Shown piece after piece: positions 18,607-25,814 of a stretch of DNA of 64,000 bases. The DNA lies in contig NZ_CP108032.1 in assembly GCF_036169555.1 (NCBI RefSeq), positions 868,001 to 932,000 on the forward strand, written 5' to 3'. Numbering within the stretch: the stretch's first letter is position 1; the number at the start of each line of letters is the position of its first letter. A program made the translations under genes and the position numbers. The stretch comes from Streptomyces sp. NBC_00306. Its GTDB lineage: Bacteria; Actinomycetota; Actinomycetes; Streptomycetales; Streptomycetaceae. The notes beneath the pieces were generated by a model. It searched no databases and was not told the origin of the DNA. It saw only the letters and a program-made list of their open reading frames with translations.

Positions 18607-21030
18607 ATGGGAGAGCGGCCTGTAGCACCGACTGCGCCCGAACTTGTCCTCGAAACAGACGCGGGCTCCACGGTGATGAGTCCGAGCCGGGACTACCACA
18701 TCGGGCGCGACCCCTCGAGCGACATCGTGCTGGACGACGACCGGGTGTCCTGGCACCACGCGGTGCTGCACGCCGACGACGGCCACTGGACCGTCGCGGA
18801 CGAGGGCAGCACCAACGGGACCTACGCCGACGGCCGGCGCATCGACGAGCAGGGCGACGTCGGACCCGGCAGCGTCCTGCGGTTCGGCCATGCCGTCGAC
18901 GGTGCACGTGCCGTGCTGACCGGGCAGGCCCCTCCGGAGCCGGCGCCTGCGCCCGTGTCCGTGTCCGAGCCGGCGCCCGCGCCCGTGTCCGAGCCGGCGC
19001 CCGAGCCCGTGTCCGGCGGGCGGGACAGGCCCTCGGCGGTCTCGATGCCCCGGGCGACCGGCACCTTCCGGCAGCCGACCAGTGTGCGTCCGCTCCCGGC
19101 CCGCACCGTCCGTATCGGCCGGGGCGACGACAACGACCTGGTCATCGATGATCTGGTGGTCTCACGCCACCACGCCGAGCTGCGGGCGCACTCCGACGGC
19201 ACCTACGAGATCGTCGACATCGGCTCCCACAACGGCACCTTCCTCAACGGCCAGCCGGTCGAGAGCGCCCGGATCGGCTCCGGAGACATCGTCGGTATCG
19301 GCCACTCCGCGTTCTGCCTGGTGGGTGACCAGCTCCAGGAGTACGTCGACACCGGCGAGGTCTCCCTCGATGTGCAGGACCTCGCGGTCACCGTGGACCA
19401 CGGACGCAAGACTCTCCTCGACCATGTCTCGTTCCCGGTCGGCGAGAAGTGCCTGCTCGGCGTGGTCGGCCCGAGTGGGGCCGGCAAGTCCACCCTGCTC
19501 AACGCTCTCACCGGCCTGCGACCCGCCGACGAGGGGACCGTCCTGTACGACGGGCGCGATCTGTACCGGGACTTCGCCGAGCTGCGCCAGCGCATCGGCC
19601 TCGTGCCGCAGGACGACATCCTGCACACCCAGCTGACCGTGCGCCGGGCCCTCGGCTACGCCGCCGAACTGCGCTTCCCCCAGGACACCGGCAAGGCCGA
19701 GCGCCTGGCGCGGGTGGAGGAAGTGGTGCGCGAGCTGGGCCTGGAGGAGCGTGCGGACCAGCCGATCCACAGTCTGTCCGGCGGCCAGCGCAAGCGGGTG
19801 AGCGTGGCGCTGGAGCTGATGACCAAACCCTCGCTGCTCTTCCTCGACGAACCGACGTCCGGACTGGACCCCGGTATGGACCGTTCGGTGATGCACATGC
19901 TGCGCGGCCTGGCCGACGACGGACGCACGGTCGTCGTGGTCACGCACAGCGTGCTCAGCCTGGATGTGTGCGACCGGCTGCTCGTCCTCGCGCCCGGCGG
20001 CAGGATCGCCTACTACGGGCCGCCCGATGAGGCACTGCCGTTCTTCGGCTTCGAGCAGTGGCCGGAGGCCTTCGAGGCGTTCGAGAACGACCGGGACCGC
20101 GACTGGGCCGGTGCGTACCGGGACTCGCCGCTTCAGCGGCGGTACATCGCGAACGCCTCCCCGCAGCCCCACCAGCCGCAGGAGTCGGCGGCCGCCTTCG
20201 TGGCGCCGCCCAAGGCCCAGAGCTGGGGATCGCAGCTGAACACCCTGGTGCGCCGGTACGCGGCGGCGCTCTCCGCCGACCGCACCTTCCTGGTGATCAT
20301 GATCGCGCTGCCGTTCGTGATGGGCGCGATGGCCCGTGCGCTCGCCGGGAGCCGTCTCACCCAGGAGACGGCGATGAACGCACTGCTCATCCTGTGTGTG
20401 GGCGGTGTCCTGATCGGTGCCGCCAACGCGGTGCGCGAGCTGGTCAAGGAACGGGTGATCTACCGGCGGGAACGAGCCGTCGGACTGTCCAGATCCGCCT
20501 ATCTGATGTCCAAGGTCGTCGTGCTGGGCACGGTCACGGTGCTCCAGGCCGTGGTCCTGACCCTGGTCGGCCTGGTCGGCGTCGCCCCCAACGCGCCCGG
20601 TGGCAAAGGGGTGCTGCTGCCACCCCTCGTGGAGATCACCCTTGCGGTCGCGGTGCTGTCCTTCACGGCCATGATGCTCGGCCTGCTCGTCTCCGCCGTG
20701 GTCCGCAAGGAAGAGGTGACCATGCCTCTGCTGGTGCTCCTCGCCATCGTGCAGGTCGTGTTCTGCGGAGCCCTGCTCAGGCTGAGCGGGCTGCCGGTCA
20801 TCGAGCAGCTGGCCTGGTTCATCCCCTCGCGCTGGGCGCTGGGAGCGATGGCGGGCACCGTCGGCCTGTCCCGGATCGTGCCCGGCGATCTCACGGCGGA
20901 CCCACTGTTCGAGCACTCCGCGGGCGTGTGGCTGCTGAACATGGGAATGCTGCTGGTGCTCTCGGTGATCTTCGGCTACGCCGTCCTGCGGCTGCTGCGC
21001 CGCCACGAGCCCGCCGTCATGCGGAAGTAG
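18607..21030 (+). CDS. FHA-FHA-ABC transporter (ATPase fused to ABC-2 membrane domain)
   Basis: An 807-aa half-transporter resembling mycobacterial Rv1747. FHA1 (about 30-100) has YHIGRDPSSDIVLDD and STNGTY. A linker follows with repeated EPAPAPVS units. FHA2 (about 158-235) has VRIGRGDDNDLVIDD, SRHHAEL and HNGTFLNG. The ATPase has a Walker A GPSGAGKST at 288-296, signature LSGGQRKR from 391 and Walker B LLFLDEPTSG. An ABC-2 type membrane domain has about six segments (565-800). FHA domains bind phosphothreonine, and the gene two downstream encodes a Ser/Thr kinase, so transport is probably phospho-regulated. The exported substrate is unknown. A TAGAAT box ends six bases before the ATG, suggesting a leaderless transcript. 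Confidence 0.92.
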   Translation: MGERPVAPTAPELVLETDAGSTVMSPSRDYHIGRDPSSDIVLDDDRVSWHHAVLHADDGHWTVADEGSTNGTYADGRRIDEQGDVGPGSVLRFGHAVDGARAVLTGQAPPEPAPAPVSVSEPAPAPVSEPAPEPVSGGRDRPSAVSMPRATGTFRQPTSVRPLPARTVRIGRGDDNDLVIDDLVVSRHHAELRAHSDGTYEIVDIGSHNGTFLNGQPVESARIGSGDIVGIGHSAFCLVGDQLQEYVDTGEVSLDVQDLAVTVDHGRKTLLDHVSFPVGEKCLLGVVGPSGAGKSTLLNALTGLRPADEGTVLYDGRDLYRDFAELRQRIGLVPQDDILHTQLTVRRALGYAAELRFPQDTGKAERLARVEEVVRELGLEERADQPIHSLSGGQRKRVSVALELMTKPSLLFLDEPTSGLDPGMDRSVMHMLRGLADDGRTVVVVTHSVLSLDVCDRLLVLAPGGRIAYYGPPDEALPFFGFEQWPEAFEAFENDRDRDWAGAYRDSPLQRRYIANASPQPHQPQESAAAFVAPPKAQSWGSQLNTLVRRYAAALSADRTFLVIMIALPFVMGAMARALAGSRLTQETAMNALLILCVGGVLIGAANAVRELVKERVIYRRERAVGLSRSAYLMSKVVVLGTVTVLQAVVLTLVGLVGVAPNAPGGKGVLLPPLVEITLAVAVLSFTAMMLGLLVSAVVRKEEVTMPLLVLLAIVQVVFCGALLRLSGLPVIEQLAWFIPSRWALGAMAGTVGLSRIVPGDLTADPLFEHSAGVWLLNMGMLLVLSVIFGYAVLRLLRRHEPAVMRK

Positions 21031-21042
21031 GGCGAAGCCACC

Positions 21043-22023
21043 ATGACCATCGAGGACTTCCGTCCGACACATGTCGTCCCCCGCGACGGTCTGCCCGCCT
21101 GGGAGGAGCCGGACGTGTCCCGGCCGACGGCGCCGCTGGACGCGCTGCTGCCGGTGCGACTGGTCGACCGGCGGGGCGACTGGGGCCGTATCGAGTGCGC
21201 CAACGGCTGGTCGGCCTGGGTGGACGGCCGGCTGCTGGTCTCCGTGCCGCAGGAGCCCCCGGCCACCGGTCAGCCCCTCACCCGCACGGCCGATCCGCGG
21301 CCGCTGCTGACCCGGGCCGGGGAGTCACTCGGGACGTACCGGCGCGCGGCCGAGGAGCTGGCGACGGGCCGGACCGACCGGGAGACGTTCCGCCGCCGGA
21401 CGCGGGGACTGCGGGTCGGCATGGTGGTGGACGGGGAGTCGGTGTGGTTGTACGACTCCGAGCACGAGCGCTGGGTGTACTGCGACGGTGCGCGGCTGAG
21501 CACGTTCGCGACCGCTGCCGGGCCGGAGGAGTCGGCCGGCCCGGCAGCTCGGGCGGCCGCACCGCCGGAGCCCACCCGGGTGGTGGACCAGGCGGAGGCG
21601 GCGGGGCCGGCACCGGTGCAGGCACGCCCGGAAGGCGCGGGACCGGCTCCGGCACAGGCTCGGCCGGAAGCGGCGGGGCCTGCCGGACCCGCCCCCGCTC
21701 AGGCTCAACCGGAAGGCCCGGGACCGGCTCCGGCACAGGGCCGCCCGGAAGCCGCGGAACCGGCCGGACCCGCCCCCGCTCAGGCTCGACCGGAAGCGGC
21801 CGGGCCTGCCGAACCGGCCCCCGCTCGGGCCCCGGCTCCTCCGGAGCCCACACGTGTCGTGACCCCGGCGCCCCCGCCCCCGGAAGCCACCCGGTCCGTC
21901 GATCCCGCGCAGGCACAGCCGCAGGCCCCCCAGGACCAGGTCCCGGAGAACGCGCAGGAGACCCGCCGCGTACCCCCTGCCGACGCCGATCCGGATCCGC
22001 CCGCCCGGCCGGGTGACACATGA
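21043..22023 (+). CDS. SH3-like, proline/alanine-rich protein with TRxV motifs
   Basis: A 326-aa protein of unknown function between the FHA-ABC and kinase genes. Residues 35-70 look like a small SH3-type beta fold (LLPVRLVDRRGDWGRIECA, then WSAWVDGRLLVSV). Residues 85-155 form a conserved-looking region containing VWLYDSEHERWVYC. Residues 160-326 are low-complexity, with repeated GPAPAQARPEAA units. Five T-x-x-V sites (T9, T178, T270, T283, T307; the last four TRxV) stand out. pT with Val at +3 fits FHA recognition, so this may be the kinase substrate and FHA ligand. That is inference. Its stop overlaps the kinase start (ATGA). No signal peptide or membrane segment is present. Confidence 0.75.
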   Translation: MTIEDFRPTHVVPRDGLPAWEEPDVSRPTAPLDALLPVRLVDRRGDWGRIECANGWSAWVDGRLLVSVPQEPPATGQPLTRTADPRPLLTRAGESLGTYRRAAEELATGRTDRETFRRRTRGLRVGMVVDGESVWLYDSEHERWVYCDGARLSTFATAAGPEESAGPAARAAAPPEPTRVVDQAEAAGPAPVQARPEGAGPAPAQARPEAAGPAGPAPAQAQPEGPGPAPAQGRPEAAEPAGPAPAQARPEAAGPAEPAPARAPAPPEPTRVVTPAPPPPEATRSVDPAQAQPQAPQDQVPENAQETRRVPPADADPDPPARPGDT

Positions 22024-23033
22024 TGGCGAGAAGTCCGCACGACACCGGTCTGCCGACCGGAAGGCCCTCCGACCTGGTCGGACAGCAGATCGCGGGCTAC
22101 CGCGTGGAGAACGAGATCGGGCGCGGCGGGATGGCGGTGGTGTACCGCGCCAAGGATCTGCGGCTGGACCGTACGGTCGCGCTGAAACTGCTCGCGCCCG
22201 AGCTCGCCCGCAACGACACCTTCCGTCAGAGGTTCACCCATGAGTCCCGGGTGGCCGCGGCCATCGATCATCCGCACATCGTCCCGGTCTTCGAGGCGGG
22301 CGAGACGGAAGGCATTCTCTACATCGCGATGCGCTATGTGGCGGGGCAGGATCTGCGGGCCCTGCTCGACCGCAAGGGGCCGCTGCCGATCGCCACGGCG
22401 GGCCGGATCGCCGCGCAGGTCGCCTCGGCCCTGGACGCCGCACACACCCACGACCTGGTGCACCGGGACGTGAAGCCCGGCAACATCCTGGTCGCCGAGG
22501 GCACGGACAGCGAGCACCCCGAGCACGTCTATCTCACCGACTTCGGGCTGACGAAGAAGTCGCTGTCGCTGACGGGGTTCACCTCGGTCGGGCAGTTCGT
22601 GGGCACGCTCGACTACGTGGCGCCCGAGCAGATCTCCGGCCGTCCCGTCGACGGCCGGTGCGACGTCTACAGCTTCGCCTGCGTCGTCTACGAGACCCTC
22701 GCCGGGACGCCCCCCTTCCAGCGGGACGACGACATGGCGCTGCTGTGGGCCCATCAGTTCGATCCGCCGCCGCCGCTGACGTCGAAGCGCGCCGACCTGC
22801 CGGCCGCGGTGGACGGCGTCCTGGCGAAGGCGCTGGCCAAGAGCCCGGACGACCGTTACGGCTCCTGTCTGCAGTTCGTGGCGTCGCTGCGAGCGGCGGC
22901 GAGGAGCGGGACCGAGGCAGGGCACCCGCCGGCCCATGGGGATCTGGCCGCGGTAGCGGGGGCCGTGGACCCGGGCCCGCCACCACCGCCGCCGAGCTGG
23001 GCCATGCCGGTGTTCCCCGGGCTGCCGGCCTGA
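22020..23033 (+). CDS. Serine/threonine protein kinase, PknF/PknB-like, soluble
   Basis: A 337-aa Hanks-type kinase. The glycine loop is IGRGGMAVVYRA (about 34-45), the ATP lysine is K56 in VALKLL and the catalytic Asp is D150 in HRDVKPGN. It also has DFGLTKK, an activation segment ending GTLDYVAPEQ and the DVYSFACVVYE helix. The C-terminal 50 residues are proline-rich. Unlike PknB it has no transmembrane or PASTA region. The ATG at 22020 overlaps the upstream stop by four bases, so it is co-translated with the SH3-like protein. Synteny with an FHA-ABC transporter parallels the mycobacterial Rv1747-PknF pair, where the kinase phosphorylates the transporter. Confidence 0.93.
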   Translation: MMARSPHDTGLPTGRPSDLVGQQIAGYRVENEIGRGGMAVVYRAKDLRLDRTVALKLLAPELARNDTFRQRFTHESRVAAAIDHPHIVPVFEAGETEGILYIAMRYVAGQDLRALLDRKGPLPIATAGRIAAQVASALDAAHTHDLVHRDVKPGNILVAEGTDSEHPEHVYLTDFGLTKKSLSLTGFTSVGQFVGTLDYVAPEQISGRPVDGRCDVYSFACVVYETLAGTPPFQRDDDMALLWAHQFDPPPPLTSKRADLPAAVDGVLAKALAKSPDDRYGSCLQFVASLRAAARSGTEAGHPPAHGDLAAVAGAVDPGPPPPPPSWAMPVFPGLPA

Positions 23034-23075: not shown

Positions 23076-24359
23076 TCAGACGTCGGTGGTCCCGACCTCG
23101 CCGCGCCGGTGGACACGCAGTGCCGGCAGGCTGCCGAGGAAGCCGGTGACCAGTCCCCACAGGGCGGCGAGCCCCAGGGCGGACCACAGCCGCGGCCGCA
23201 GGAACACATCACCGCCGAGACCTCCGTCGATGTCCCCGATGCCCAGCAGCGACAGTCCGTAGTGCGCGGTCAGCCGGGCGACGAGGCAGACGGTCAGCAC
23301 CGTGAGGACGAGTGCGACGGCCATGTGCACGGCGTGCTGCCACGGCCGGACGCGGGCGGGTGAGCGCACGGCCATCAGGAAGGCCGCGCCCAGCAGGAGT
23401 ACCGCGGCCACGACGAGCAGCCACCAGGCGCGGCTGTCCCGCTCGGTGAGCGAACTCAGGTTGACCGTGGACCCGCCCGGTGTGCGAAGGACTTCGTCGA
23501 GAATCTGCGGCACGGGCAGCCCGAAGGGGCCCTCGACCTTGCCGTCCCAGGTGGCGCCGAGTCCGACGGTGAAGGCGATCCAGGCGAGGTTGGGCAGCCC
23601 GAGCAGGATCACCGCGAGCGTCTCGGCGGTGTGCCCGCGGGTCGCCGCGACGACGAGTCCCACGACGATGCCCAGGACGACGTAGGCGAGCAGCAGGACG
23701 ACCATGGCGAATGCCGCCGGGCGCACCGACTCCTGGAAACGCAGCAGACGGCCGGGCAGCGGGGTCTTGCGCGAGACGAGTACGGCCAGCAGGAGGAGGC
23801 CCGCGAGCCACACCAGTCCCAGGACGACGGTGACGGGGATGTTAGCGCGGAAGCCGACCTGTGGGGCGGAGTCGAGCAGGTCACCGATGTCGGAGACGGT
23901 CCCTTCGCCCAGTGGGACGGCGAAGGAGTGCCGGGCGACGGCAGCCAGGGCGATGAGGGCGATCGCCCACAGCACGGCGAGCCGGCCGGCCCAGCCGGCC
24001 AGCTCGCGGGCGCTCGCGACGGCGCGGTGCCGCAGAGGGCGCAGAAAGCCCTCGGCGATGACCACGGCGCCGGCCAGTGTCACCGAGAGGGGCAGCACGG
24101 TGAGTCCCGCGCTCGTCTCGGCGATGAGCCCGGCGTCCCCGGAGAGCTCGACGGAGCCGCCGACCGCCATCACGACGACCGCCGCGACGACGGAGGGAAA
24201 GGCGCCTCCGGGCAGTTCGGCGGCCCCGGCGGCCCACAGACCGAGGGCTGCCGTGACGAGGAGGGCCACCACGCCGGCGAGCACTGCCACCAGTGCTTGG
24301 AGCCAGCCGTGCGAGGCACGGGCGGGCCGGTCGCGGTCGCGGATCTCCTCGTGGCTCAC
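23076..24359 (-). CDS. Streptophobe-family membrane protein
   Basis: A 427-aa, very hydrophobic protein with about ten membrane segments (first at about 22-48, last at about 395-415), characteristic of the actinobacterial streptophobe family. Function is unknown. A short polar N-terminus (SHEEIRDRDRPARASHG) precedes the first segment, and the basic tail HRRGEVGTTDV is probably cytoplasmic. Start is GTG at 24359. It converges on the kinase gene (42-bp gap) and is divergent from the DUF6777-like gene, an arrangement suggesting a shared role with the signalling module. Confidence 0.82.
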   Translation of the reverse strand: MSHEEIRDRDRPARASHGWLQALVAVLAGVVALLVTAALGLWAAGAAELPGGAFPSVVAAVVVMAVGGSVELSGDAGLIAETSAGLTVLPLSVTLAGAVVIAEGFLRPLRHRAVASARELAGWAGRLAVLWAIALIALAAVARHSFAVPLGEGTVSDIGDLLDSAPQVGFRANIPVTVVLGLVWLAGLLLLAVLVSRKTPLPGRLLRFQESVRPAAFAMVVLLLAYVVLGIVVGLVVAATRGHTAETLAVILLGLPNLAWIAFTVGLGATWDGKVEGPFGLPVPQILDEVLRTPGGSTVNLSSLTERDSRAWWLLVVAAVLLLGAAFLMAVRSPARVRPWQHAVHMAVALVLTVLTVCLVARLTAHYGLSLLGIGDIDGGLGGDVFLRPRLWSALGLAALWGLVTGFLGSLPALRVHRRGEVGTTDV

Positions 24360-24536
24360 GCTGCCACGCTAAGCAGCCGAGCGTCGCTCCGCCCGCCGGG
24401 AGGGCCGACCGCGTCAGCTTGCGGGCCGTGCGGATACGGAGCACACAATGGTCGTGCAGTGCCATGAAACGTCTTCAACGGAATATGCGGTGCATTTCCA
24501 CTCCGCTTGACGTCCTCATCGTGGGAAGAAGAGCCC

Positions 24537-25814
24537 GTGAGCGCCGAACAGCCACCGTCCGAACGCCCCACAGGTCCACCGTCAGGCCCCTTGTCCGGAC
24601 CGTCGCGGGGAGGACCGACGCCACCACCCGGCCCGCCGCCCGGCCCGTCGAGCGGCGGTGGCCCGAGCGGACCGGGCGGACCCGGCGGTACGGGCGGCTC
24701 CGGCGGAACGGGCGGCTCCGGCACTCCCACGGGAGGGCCCGGCGACGGAGGGCAGCGCCCGTGGTGGCGCTCCGTACCCAAGGTGGCCACGATCGCCGTC
24801 GCGCTGGTGGCCGCCGTGGCGCTGATCGTCGTCTTCACCCGCCCCGACGGAGGCTCCGGCTCCGGCAGCGAGGTGTTCCTCCAGGCCGCGGGTACGGCCG
24901 GCCCCGATCCCTACACCCCCTCCACCGCACGCGAGGACGCGCCCACCGACGAGTCGGCGCAGCCGACCGCGACCGCGAAGGCCGCGAATCAGACGCAGAG
25001 CGTGGTGGGCTCAACACCCGGTCTGTACGGGGGAACCCGCAAGGTCGCCAGCTGCAATGTCGAGCAGCAGGTCACCTACCTCACCGACAATCCGGCCAAG
25101 AACACGGCCTTCGCCTCGGTCGTGGATGTCGAGCCCGGCGCCGTACCCGCGTATCTGCGCTCGTTGACGCCCGTCCAGCTGCGACTGGACACCCGCGTCA
25201 CCAACCACGGCTACCGGGACGGCAAGCCGACCAGCTACCAGGCGGTGCTCCAGACCGGCACGGCCGTCCTCATCGACGACCGCGGCGTCCCGACGGTGCG
25301 CTGTGCCTGCGGCAACCCGCTCCAGGAGCCCAAGGAGCTGAAGGGCACACCGAAGCGCACGGGCGACGCCTGGCCCGGCTACCGTCCGGAAAAGGAAGTG
25401 ATCGTCGCGCCCGCGCCGCAGCCGGTCAAGGAGTTCGTGGTCTTCGACGGCGAGAACGACGACTGGTTCGAACGCCCCGCGGGCGGCACCGGCGGCAGCG
25501 ACAAGAAGACGGCACCCCCGAAGAAGCCGCTCCCCTCGGCGCCCACACCGGGCACCTCCCCCTCGGGCTCGTCCGGGTCCGCGTGTCCGTCGCCGGGCGG
25601 GAAATGCCCGCCGCCGTCACCCAGTTCACCGCCCTCGAACCCGCCGGACTCACCTTCTGAGCCCCCGCCCTCGCAACCGCAGAGCCCGGAACCCCCGCCC
25701 ACCCAGTCCCCGGAGCCACCGCCGCCACCTCCACCGCCGCCGCAGTCCGACTCGGCGGACACGGGCAACACCGCATCGGCACCGGACTCACCGCCGCCGG
25801 CCCCGGCCGGTTAG
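24537..25814 (+). CDS. DUF6777-like single-pass membrane protein with proline-rich ends
   Basis: A 425-aa protein. A Pro/Gly/Ser-rich cytoplasmic N-terminus (about 1-75) is followed by one membrane segment (VATIAVALVAAVALIVVF, about 83-102). The conserved extracytoplasmic domain (about 110-265) starts EVFLQAAGTAGPDPYTPST, as in DUF6777 proteins, and contains paired cysteines including CAC near 260. A long Pro/Ser-rich tail follows. Function is unknown. I chose the GTG at 24537 because GGAAG lies just upstream; a TTG ten codons earlier is unlikely. It may act with the nearby kinase/FHA module, since its cytoplasmic tail is rich in possible phosphorylation sites. Confidence 0.75.
   Translation: MSAEQPPSERPTGPPSGPLSGPSRGGPTPPPGPPPGPSSGGGPSGPGGPGGTGGSGGTGGSGTPTGGPGDGGQRPWWRSVPKVATIAVALVAAVALIVVFTRPDGGSGSGSEVFLQAAGTAGPDPYTPSTAREDAPTDESAQPTATAKAANQTQSVVGSTPGLYGGTRKVASCNVEQQVTYLTDNPAKNTAFASVVDVEPGAVPAYLRSLTPVQLRLDTRVTNHGYRDGKPTSYQAVLQTGTAVLIDDRGVPTVRCACGNPLQEPKELKGTPKRTGDAWPGYRPEKEVIVAPAPQPVKEFVVFDGENDDWFERPAGGTGGSDKKTAPPKKPLPSAPTPGTSPSGSSGSACPSPGGKCPPPSPSSPPSNPPDSPSEPPPSQPQSPEPPPTQSPEPPPPPPPPPQSDSADTGNTASAPDSPPPAPAG

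Follow-up and report, generated by a model that had tools for sequence, protein, structure and literature searches.

The closest described systems are found in Mycobacterium tuberculosis. The pknF-Rv1747 operon of this species encodes a Ser/Thr kinase, PknF, which is reported to phosphorylate the FHA-containing ABC exporter encoded with it (PMC3908365). FHA binding is steered by the residue at the third position after the phosphothreonine (pT+3), and T237 of Rv2623 lies in the sequence pTRVV, where a T237A change is reported to weaken, and not to abolish, binding to FHA I of Rv1747 (PMC5549992). Condensation of Rv1747(1-310) is enhanced by phosphorylation (Heinkel et al. 2019, as given in the review PMC9312465). 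A related locus lies in a stretch of 64,000 nucleotides of the 8.5 Mb genome of Streptomyces sp. NBC_00306 (contig NZ_CP108032.1, positions 868,001 to 932,000; here called the window). It encodes an exporter with two FHA domains, a Ser/Thr kinase and, between them, a protein of 326 amino acids (aa), here called the adaptor. On balance, this protein appears to be a dedicated, multivalent phosphothreonine adaptor of the exporter, written by the kinase and read by the FHA domains; we infer its phosphorylation, the identity of the writer, the binding and the effect on transport. This reading starts from what is observed directly: the genes and their domains, intact FHA residues, a tail motif that drifts in position, the use of Thr over Ser and co-inheritance with one kind of exporter.

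Organization of the locus

The comparison covers 119 loci: the window, the best 80 of 338 relatives of the adaptor (L009-L088) and others from genome surveys. The three genes of the window (all positions are window positions) are as follows.

18607..21030, + strand: FHA-FHA-ABC exporter (type A, defined below), 807 aa; Pfam FHA (twice), ABC_tran and ABC2_membrane; adjoins the adaptor gene in 118 of 119 loci
21043..22023, + strand: adaptor gene, 326 aa; open reading frame (ORF) and motif count; 338 relatives found
22020..23033, + strand: Ser/Thr kinase, 337 aa; Pfam Pkinase, 158 bits; adjoins the adaptor gene on the same strand in 110 of 119 loci

The exporter and adaptor genes are separated by 12 bases, and the adaptor and kinase genes share an ATGA overlap (the kinase ATG lies over the adaptor stop codon); the arrangement is therefore operon-like. 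An earlier interpretation made from the DNA letters alone (the sequence-only reading) had called these three ORFs, an exporter with two FHA domains and a soluble kinase. The ORFs are found where it had placed them and all domains score above the Pfam cut-offs. The exporter has two FHA domains, an ATPase domain and a membrane domain in one chain, as in the Rv1747-type exporters. Solubility of the kinase fits its hydropathy profile: its most hydrophobic 19-residue stretch has a mean of only 0.97 (2.6 in the exporter) and no stretch is strongly hydrophobic.

Threonine motif of the adaptor tail

The C-terminal half of the adaptor is rich in Pro, Ala and Glu and contains most of its T..V sites.

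21517..22020, + strand: adaptor tail, residues 159-326, disordered-looking; sequence composition and tail comparison
21574..21576, + strand: T178 codon (EPTRVV); motif count
21850..21852, + strand: T270 codon (EPTRVV); motif count
21889..21891, + strand: T283 codon (EATRSV); motif count
21961..21963, + strand: T307 codon (QETRRV); motif count

There are exactly five T..V sites in the window adaptor: T9 (THVV), T178 (TRVV), T270 (TRVV), T283 (TRSV) and T307 (TRRV). The four TRxV sites and one THVV site counted by the sequence-only reading are thus all present. Among 5,000 shuffles of the protein, TRxV occurs 0.13 times on average and twice at most, and none reaches four.

Seven of the 119 loci were left out of the tail comparison: three at contig ends (L014, L025 and L041), three with X in the tail (L058, L072 and L079) and the paralog L103. 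Merging of duplicates left 108 distinct tails, which range in length from 9 to 308 residues; expected counts are the means of 200 shuffles. TRxV occurs 195 times in these tails (4.7 expected), T[RQ]xV 301 times (6.4 expected), TxxV 325 times (65.6 expected) and TxxI 21 times (5.5 expected). No enrichment is seen for SxxV (27 observed, 35.0 expected), TxxL (6 observed, 8.0 expected) or Val at +4 (15 observed, 64.7 expected). Of the 108 tails, 99 contain T[RQ]xV one or more times, compared with 6.0 expected, and 69 contain strict TRxV. Residues around the TxxV sites are also restricted (Pro at -1, 81%; Glu at -2, 63%; Arg or Gln at +1, 93%; Val at +2, 71%), giving the consensus E-P-T-[R/Q]-V-V. 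The motif is thus wider than the TRxV site proposed earlier.

Conservation of the TRxV sites among orthologs had been named as a check on the original idea. The motif itself is retained, as the counts above indicate, and its positions do not align between tails. Copy number ranges from 0 to 14. When the motif is mapped on a FastTree tree of the head, a minimum of 5 changes is required to explain its presence, and a minimum of 13 to explain where it has four or more copies. The commonest spacing between copies is 11 residues (56 cases), from which it follows that tandem copying has occurred. Since 274 T[RQ][VIL]V copies are encoded by 93 different DNA 12-mers, selection appears to act at the protein level. 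A motif that is kept while its position is free is, on this comparison, the pattern of a short linear motif under selection. The tail sites also have the sequence features of a pTxxV ligand, being Thr and not Ser, with Val at +3 and conserved. Because FHA domains demand phosphothreonine, the preference for Thr together with Val or Ile supports reading by an FHA domain.

The motif was also sought elsewhere. In the window genome, a DNA pattern for [E/Q]-P-T-[R/Q/H]-V-V gave three matches, compared with two for a reversed control pattern; two of the three are T178 and T270 and the third lies in no listed in-frame ORF of at least 80 aa. The exporter's own inter-FHA linker was rejected as a carrier, as P-T-[RQ]-V-V was found in none of the 89 linkers parsed (from 118 exporters). 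T[RQ]xV has 16 matches in the parsed linkers, all of them TRTV directly before FHA2. In other genera, 24 genomes have an FHA-ABC match; in 20 proteins examined, from 20 of these genomes, T[RQ][VILAM]V does not occur before the ATPase domain, and a motif in cis was rejected. The type B paralog of the exporter was rejected likewise: the 20 proteins examined, of which 16 gave a parsed linker, hold a single match, located in the membrane part.

FHA domains of the exporter and co-inheritance

The proposed reader lies in the N-terminal part of the exporter.

18694..18888, + strand: FHA1; matches Rv1747 FHA-1 (6ccd)
19057..19071, + strand: T151-G-T-F-R155 block before FHA2, a candidate cis phospho-site; identified by conservation, with a putative function
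19108..19302, + strand: FHA2; matches Rv1747 FHA-2 (6cah) and GarA

Residue counts were made on the 93 of 118 exporters that have at least 700 aa. In FHA2, the phosphothreonine-binding residues R172, S186, H189 and N209 are kept in all 93 rows. In FHA1, R34 is kept in 85 of 86 ungapped rows, S48 in 84 of 86 and N70 in 88 of 90. Judged by these alignments, the exporter residues that hold phosphothreonine are intact. The block before FHA2 (T151-G-T-F-R155-x-P-T158) is similarly conserved; T151 and R155 are invariant in the 93 rows, and position 158 has Thr in 89 rows and Ser in the other 4. An exporter model built from 29 of 30 thinned rows has low confidence up to residue 154, shows the T151 block as disordered and places the first strand of FHA2 at residues 159-162. 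The T-x-x-F-R arrangement recalls the GarA sequence TTSVFR (a peptide printed in PMC8546545). By this analogy the T151 block is a candidate cis phospho-site and is best treated as a lead.

The 80 adaptor relatives kept are all from Streptomyces. FHA-ABC exporters are encoded by all 41 genomes surveyed from this genus and fall into two kinds by identity, type A (at least 77%) and type B (57-65%). Type A is found in 25 of the 41 genomes and type B in 40 (the exception, G001, is 79% complete). The adaptor is found in 24 genomes; all 24 have type A, and the 16 genomes that lack type A lack the adaptor too. In the one type A genome without it (G017), a contig ends 415 bases from the exporter match. 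Of the 20 type B stretches fetched, none contains a homolog of the adaptor or the kinase. Across 296 genomes drawn from the whole class (at most 12 candidates scored per genome), the adaptor was found in 16 of 28 listed members of the genus. Outside the genus there were two marginal adaptor-like matches (G061 and G253; E-values of about 6e-4), both partial and one with an internal stop. The adaptor is therefore co-inherited with one exporter paralog, type A.

The adaptor head

The part of the adaptor before the tail is conserved and predicted to fold.

21049..21267, + strand: SH3-like domain, residues 3-75, containing T9; model and VIA-align; Pfam SH3_4 below the cut-off for the window protein
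21292..21516, + strand: helix pair and four strands, residues 84-158; model; no fold matched

Residues 1-158 have a mean column identity of 78% (63 sequences). A model built from 63 of 111 heads after thinning (mean pLDDT 78.9, pTM 0.50) shows an SH3-like barrel followed by two helices and four strands. The low-complexity character ascribed to the sequence around all sites thus applies to the tail, from about residue 159 to 326, and not to this part. VIA-align matches residues 3-75 to SH3 domains (best Z of 8.7 over 71 residues and 8.3 over 67). Foldseek returned nothing for the head at an E-value of up to 0.001, and a profile search of solved chains gave no match (best E-value: 0.64). The Pfam SH3_4 score of the window adaptor is 16.3 bits (cut-off 24.1), and 28 of the 63 members match this family at an E-value of up to 1 (lowest E-value: 2.3e-7). 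Because of the empty Foldseek result and the score below the cut-off, the barrel is termed only SH3-like. The adaptor receives no NCBIfam name at an E-value of up to 1.

T9 had been counted among the phospho-switch sites, and a role like that of the tail sites could be argued from its conservation, as the position is Thr in 114 of 119 loci with Val or Ile at +3. The segment reads PTHVVP in 108 loci, PTHIVP or PTHVIP in 5, PSHVVP in 4, PGHVVP in 1 (L108) and ATHVVP in 1 (L103). Ser and Gly are thus accepted, and the residue adjoins the first two paired strands of the modelled SH3-like barrel. The Thr is also kept in L103, which has neither tail motif nor exporter nor kinase. A phospho-site at T9 is hardly credible on these grounds; in the model, the residue is probably structural and belongs to the folded head, not to the tail.

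L103 (G018:C16) is a paralog of the adaptor head with 36% identity, and its setting indicates that the head has a second use.

The kinase and flanking genes

The nearest solved chain to the kinase is PknE (2h34). Its C-terminus (window 22830-23033) ends in W[AS]xP[VMI][FY] in 102 of 107 complete kinases, and [PAR]T[RQ]V is present in the C-tails of 49 of 107, mostly with Asp next (at +3). Because of these two features, the kinase and the adaptor may share a partner.

Nine loci have no kinase gene adjacent to the adaptor gene. They are three cut contigs, the paralog L103, L034 (identical to L090), L044, L121 and L128. No kinase match was found anywhere in the whole locus for L034 or L044. In L121 and L128 (1.5 kb of flank), a streptophobe gene lies directly next, with no kinase. 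These four loci provide natural instances in which a kinase encoded elsewhere could act. In one other genus of the class, two genomes encode a kinase, one FHA domain and an ABC exporter as a single fused chain (L195, 5467-9243, - strand, 1258 aa; L196, 5114-8548, + strand, 1144 aa), which suggests that such kinases are tied to such exporters.

The convergent neighbour of the three genes is also conserved.

23076..24359, - strand: streptophobe family membrane protein; NF038391, 520.7 bits

This gene is kept in 80 of the 88 loci that reach 1.5 kb beyond the kinase. A gene of the same family adjoins the second FHA-ABC paralog of the window genome (489.9 bits; L141, 8358-10604, + strand), and FHA-ABC exporters may have the streptophobe protein as an additional partner. 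No paper using the name streptophobe was found in the open-licence literature searched. Beyond it lies a gene for a DUF6777 protein with a start rich in Pro and Gly (window 24507-25814, + strand). As this gene recurs in 71 of 117 adaptor loci, the conserved block may span five genes.

Proposed model and alternatives

In the model that we favour, the folded head probably holds the adaptor to a partner, giving a second contact. The neighbouring kinase would phosphorylate the tail Thr of E-P-T-[R/Q]-V-V, and the phosphothreonine, with Val at +3, would dock on an FHA domain of the exporter. A tail with several such sites could bridge exporters and keep the kinase close, thereby switching or clustering transport, and a phosphatase would reset the switch. 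The sequence-only reading had proposed a phospho-adaptor between the kinase and the FHA exporter; with orthologs compared, this is still the best reading, minus T9 and minus the fixed positions.

More tentatively, the adaptor might be a valence-tunable phospho-scaffold in trans, in which lineages set how strongly exporters cluster through the gain or loss of motif copies (0 to 14) that compete with the GarA-like cis block TGTFR for the FHA domains.

Several observations weigh against the adaptor model. Multivalence is not general, as 33 of the 108 tails have a single site, and tandem copying inflates the copy counts. The tail sample is biased to close relatives, being drawn mainly from the best 80 of 338, and the shuffles ignore relatedness. 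In the window itself, T178 and T270 match the full consensus, and T283 and T307 match it in part. T[RQ]xV is missing from 9 of 108 tails; among those without the motif, L034 has PTQIT and L126 has ETRAI, L099, L101, L102, L104 and L107 keep [PA]TR and have lost the Val at +3, and L108 and L111 have no recognisable site. Thr sites lost upon PknA depletion are reported to have Pro at -1, Leu or Val at +3 and acidic residues at -1 and -3 to -6; the tail motif fits this in part, as the reported positions do not include its Glu at -2 (PMC7164672). The adaptor and exporter also persist without an adjacent kinase (L034/L090, L044, L121 and L128), which leaves room for another kinase as the writer.

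The tail motif could instead be a real phosphothreonine ligand for another FHA protein (GarA-like, FhaA-like or the type B exporter), with the neighbourhood reflecting shared expression. Candidates exist: FHA matches in the window genome total 10, including those in other proteins, and nearly every genome of the genus has type B. This explanation is unlikely given the survey described above, in which all 16 genomes with type B only lack the adaptor and the 20 type B stretches fetched have neither adaptor nor kinase homolog. Alternatively, the motif could serve only the kinase, as its docking or substrate site, or be recognised by the head of a second adaptor copy, with no FHA reading; this would account for the related motif and the conserved ending of the kinase C-tails. 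The strict use of Thr over Ser and the Val or Ile at +3 are, however, an FHA signature and not a general kinase preference, and the adjoining exporter has two intact FHA domains, making this alternative quite improbable.

The 11-residue spacing and the arrays of up to 14 copies resemble slippage copying, as would be expected if GC-rich DNA encoding a disordered tail had undergone neutral duplication in tandem. Against this, the motif is kept where a tail has one site only and is present in 99 of 108 tails that show no alignment otherwise, the SxxV and T+4V controls lack enrichment, and the 274 copies occur in 93 DNA versions. Neutral duplication is therefore very unlikely, and functionless DNA repeats were rejected on the last of these counts.

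If the adaptor model is correct, the writer, the multivalent tag and the reader are encoded in one operon, which would be a compact and tractable set in a soil-dwelling, antibiotic-making genus. Control of an Rv1747-type exporter could then be transferred to a separate scaffold whose copy number is adjustable, and what FHA-driven clustering does would be testable by motif counts. The adaptor, nameless in NCBIfam, would gain a partner and a likely role. The scaffold version, if true, would give bacteria an equivalent of the multivalent phospho-scaffolds known from animal receptors, encoded in the same operon as its writer and reader.

Comparison with known systems

No paper on the adaptor was found in the open-licence literature on Streptomyces FHA, ABC and kinase proteins, phosphoproteomes, FHA scaffolds or TRVV, and the main text of one Streptomyces phosphoproteome paper (PMC9600765) does not contain FHA, SH3 or TRVV. 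The sequence-only reading had presented the locus as an extension of the Rv1747-PknF pairing. As a putative adaptor variant of that pairing this description holds; the closest precedent, binding of Rv2623 pTRVV by FHA I, had not been named. The same four letters, pTRVV, form the Rv1747 FHA I ligand in the Rv2623 work cited above (PMC5549992), and the equivalent binding is predicted here. Rv2623 differs in being a folded universal stress protein with one site, whereas the adaptor has an unrelated head and a tail with up to 14 sites.

The locus resembles Rv1747-PknF in that a two-FHA ABC exporter shares an operon-like cluster with a Ser/Thr kinase gene and that FHA1 and FHA2 match the solved Rv1747 domains. 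It differs in gene order (exporter, adaptor and kinase here; kinase and exporter there), in the lack of P-T-[RQ]-V-V in the 89 parsed inter-FHA linkers of Streptomyces and in the third, separate protein that holds the motif. FHA2 also matches GarA, and the T151 block recalls the N-terminal switch of GarA/OdhI, although the setting differs and the resemblance of the block is short. The condensation of Rv1747(1-310), as reviewed in PMC9312465, likewise involves kinase-controlled FHA modules and disordered segments. In that system the sites and their readers belong to one chain; in Streptomyces the sites would act in trans.

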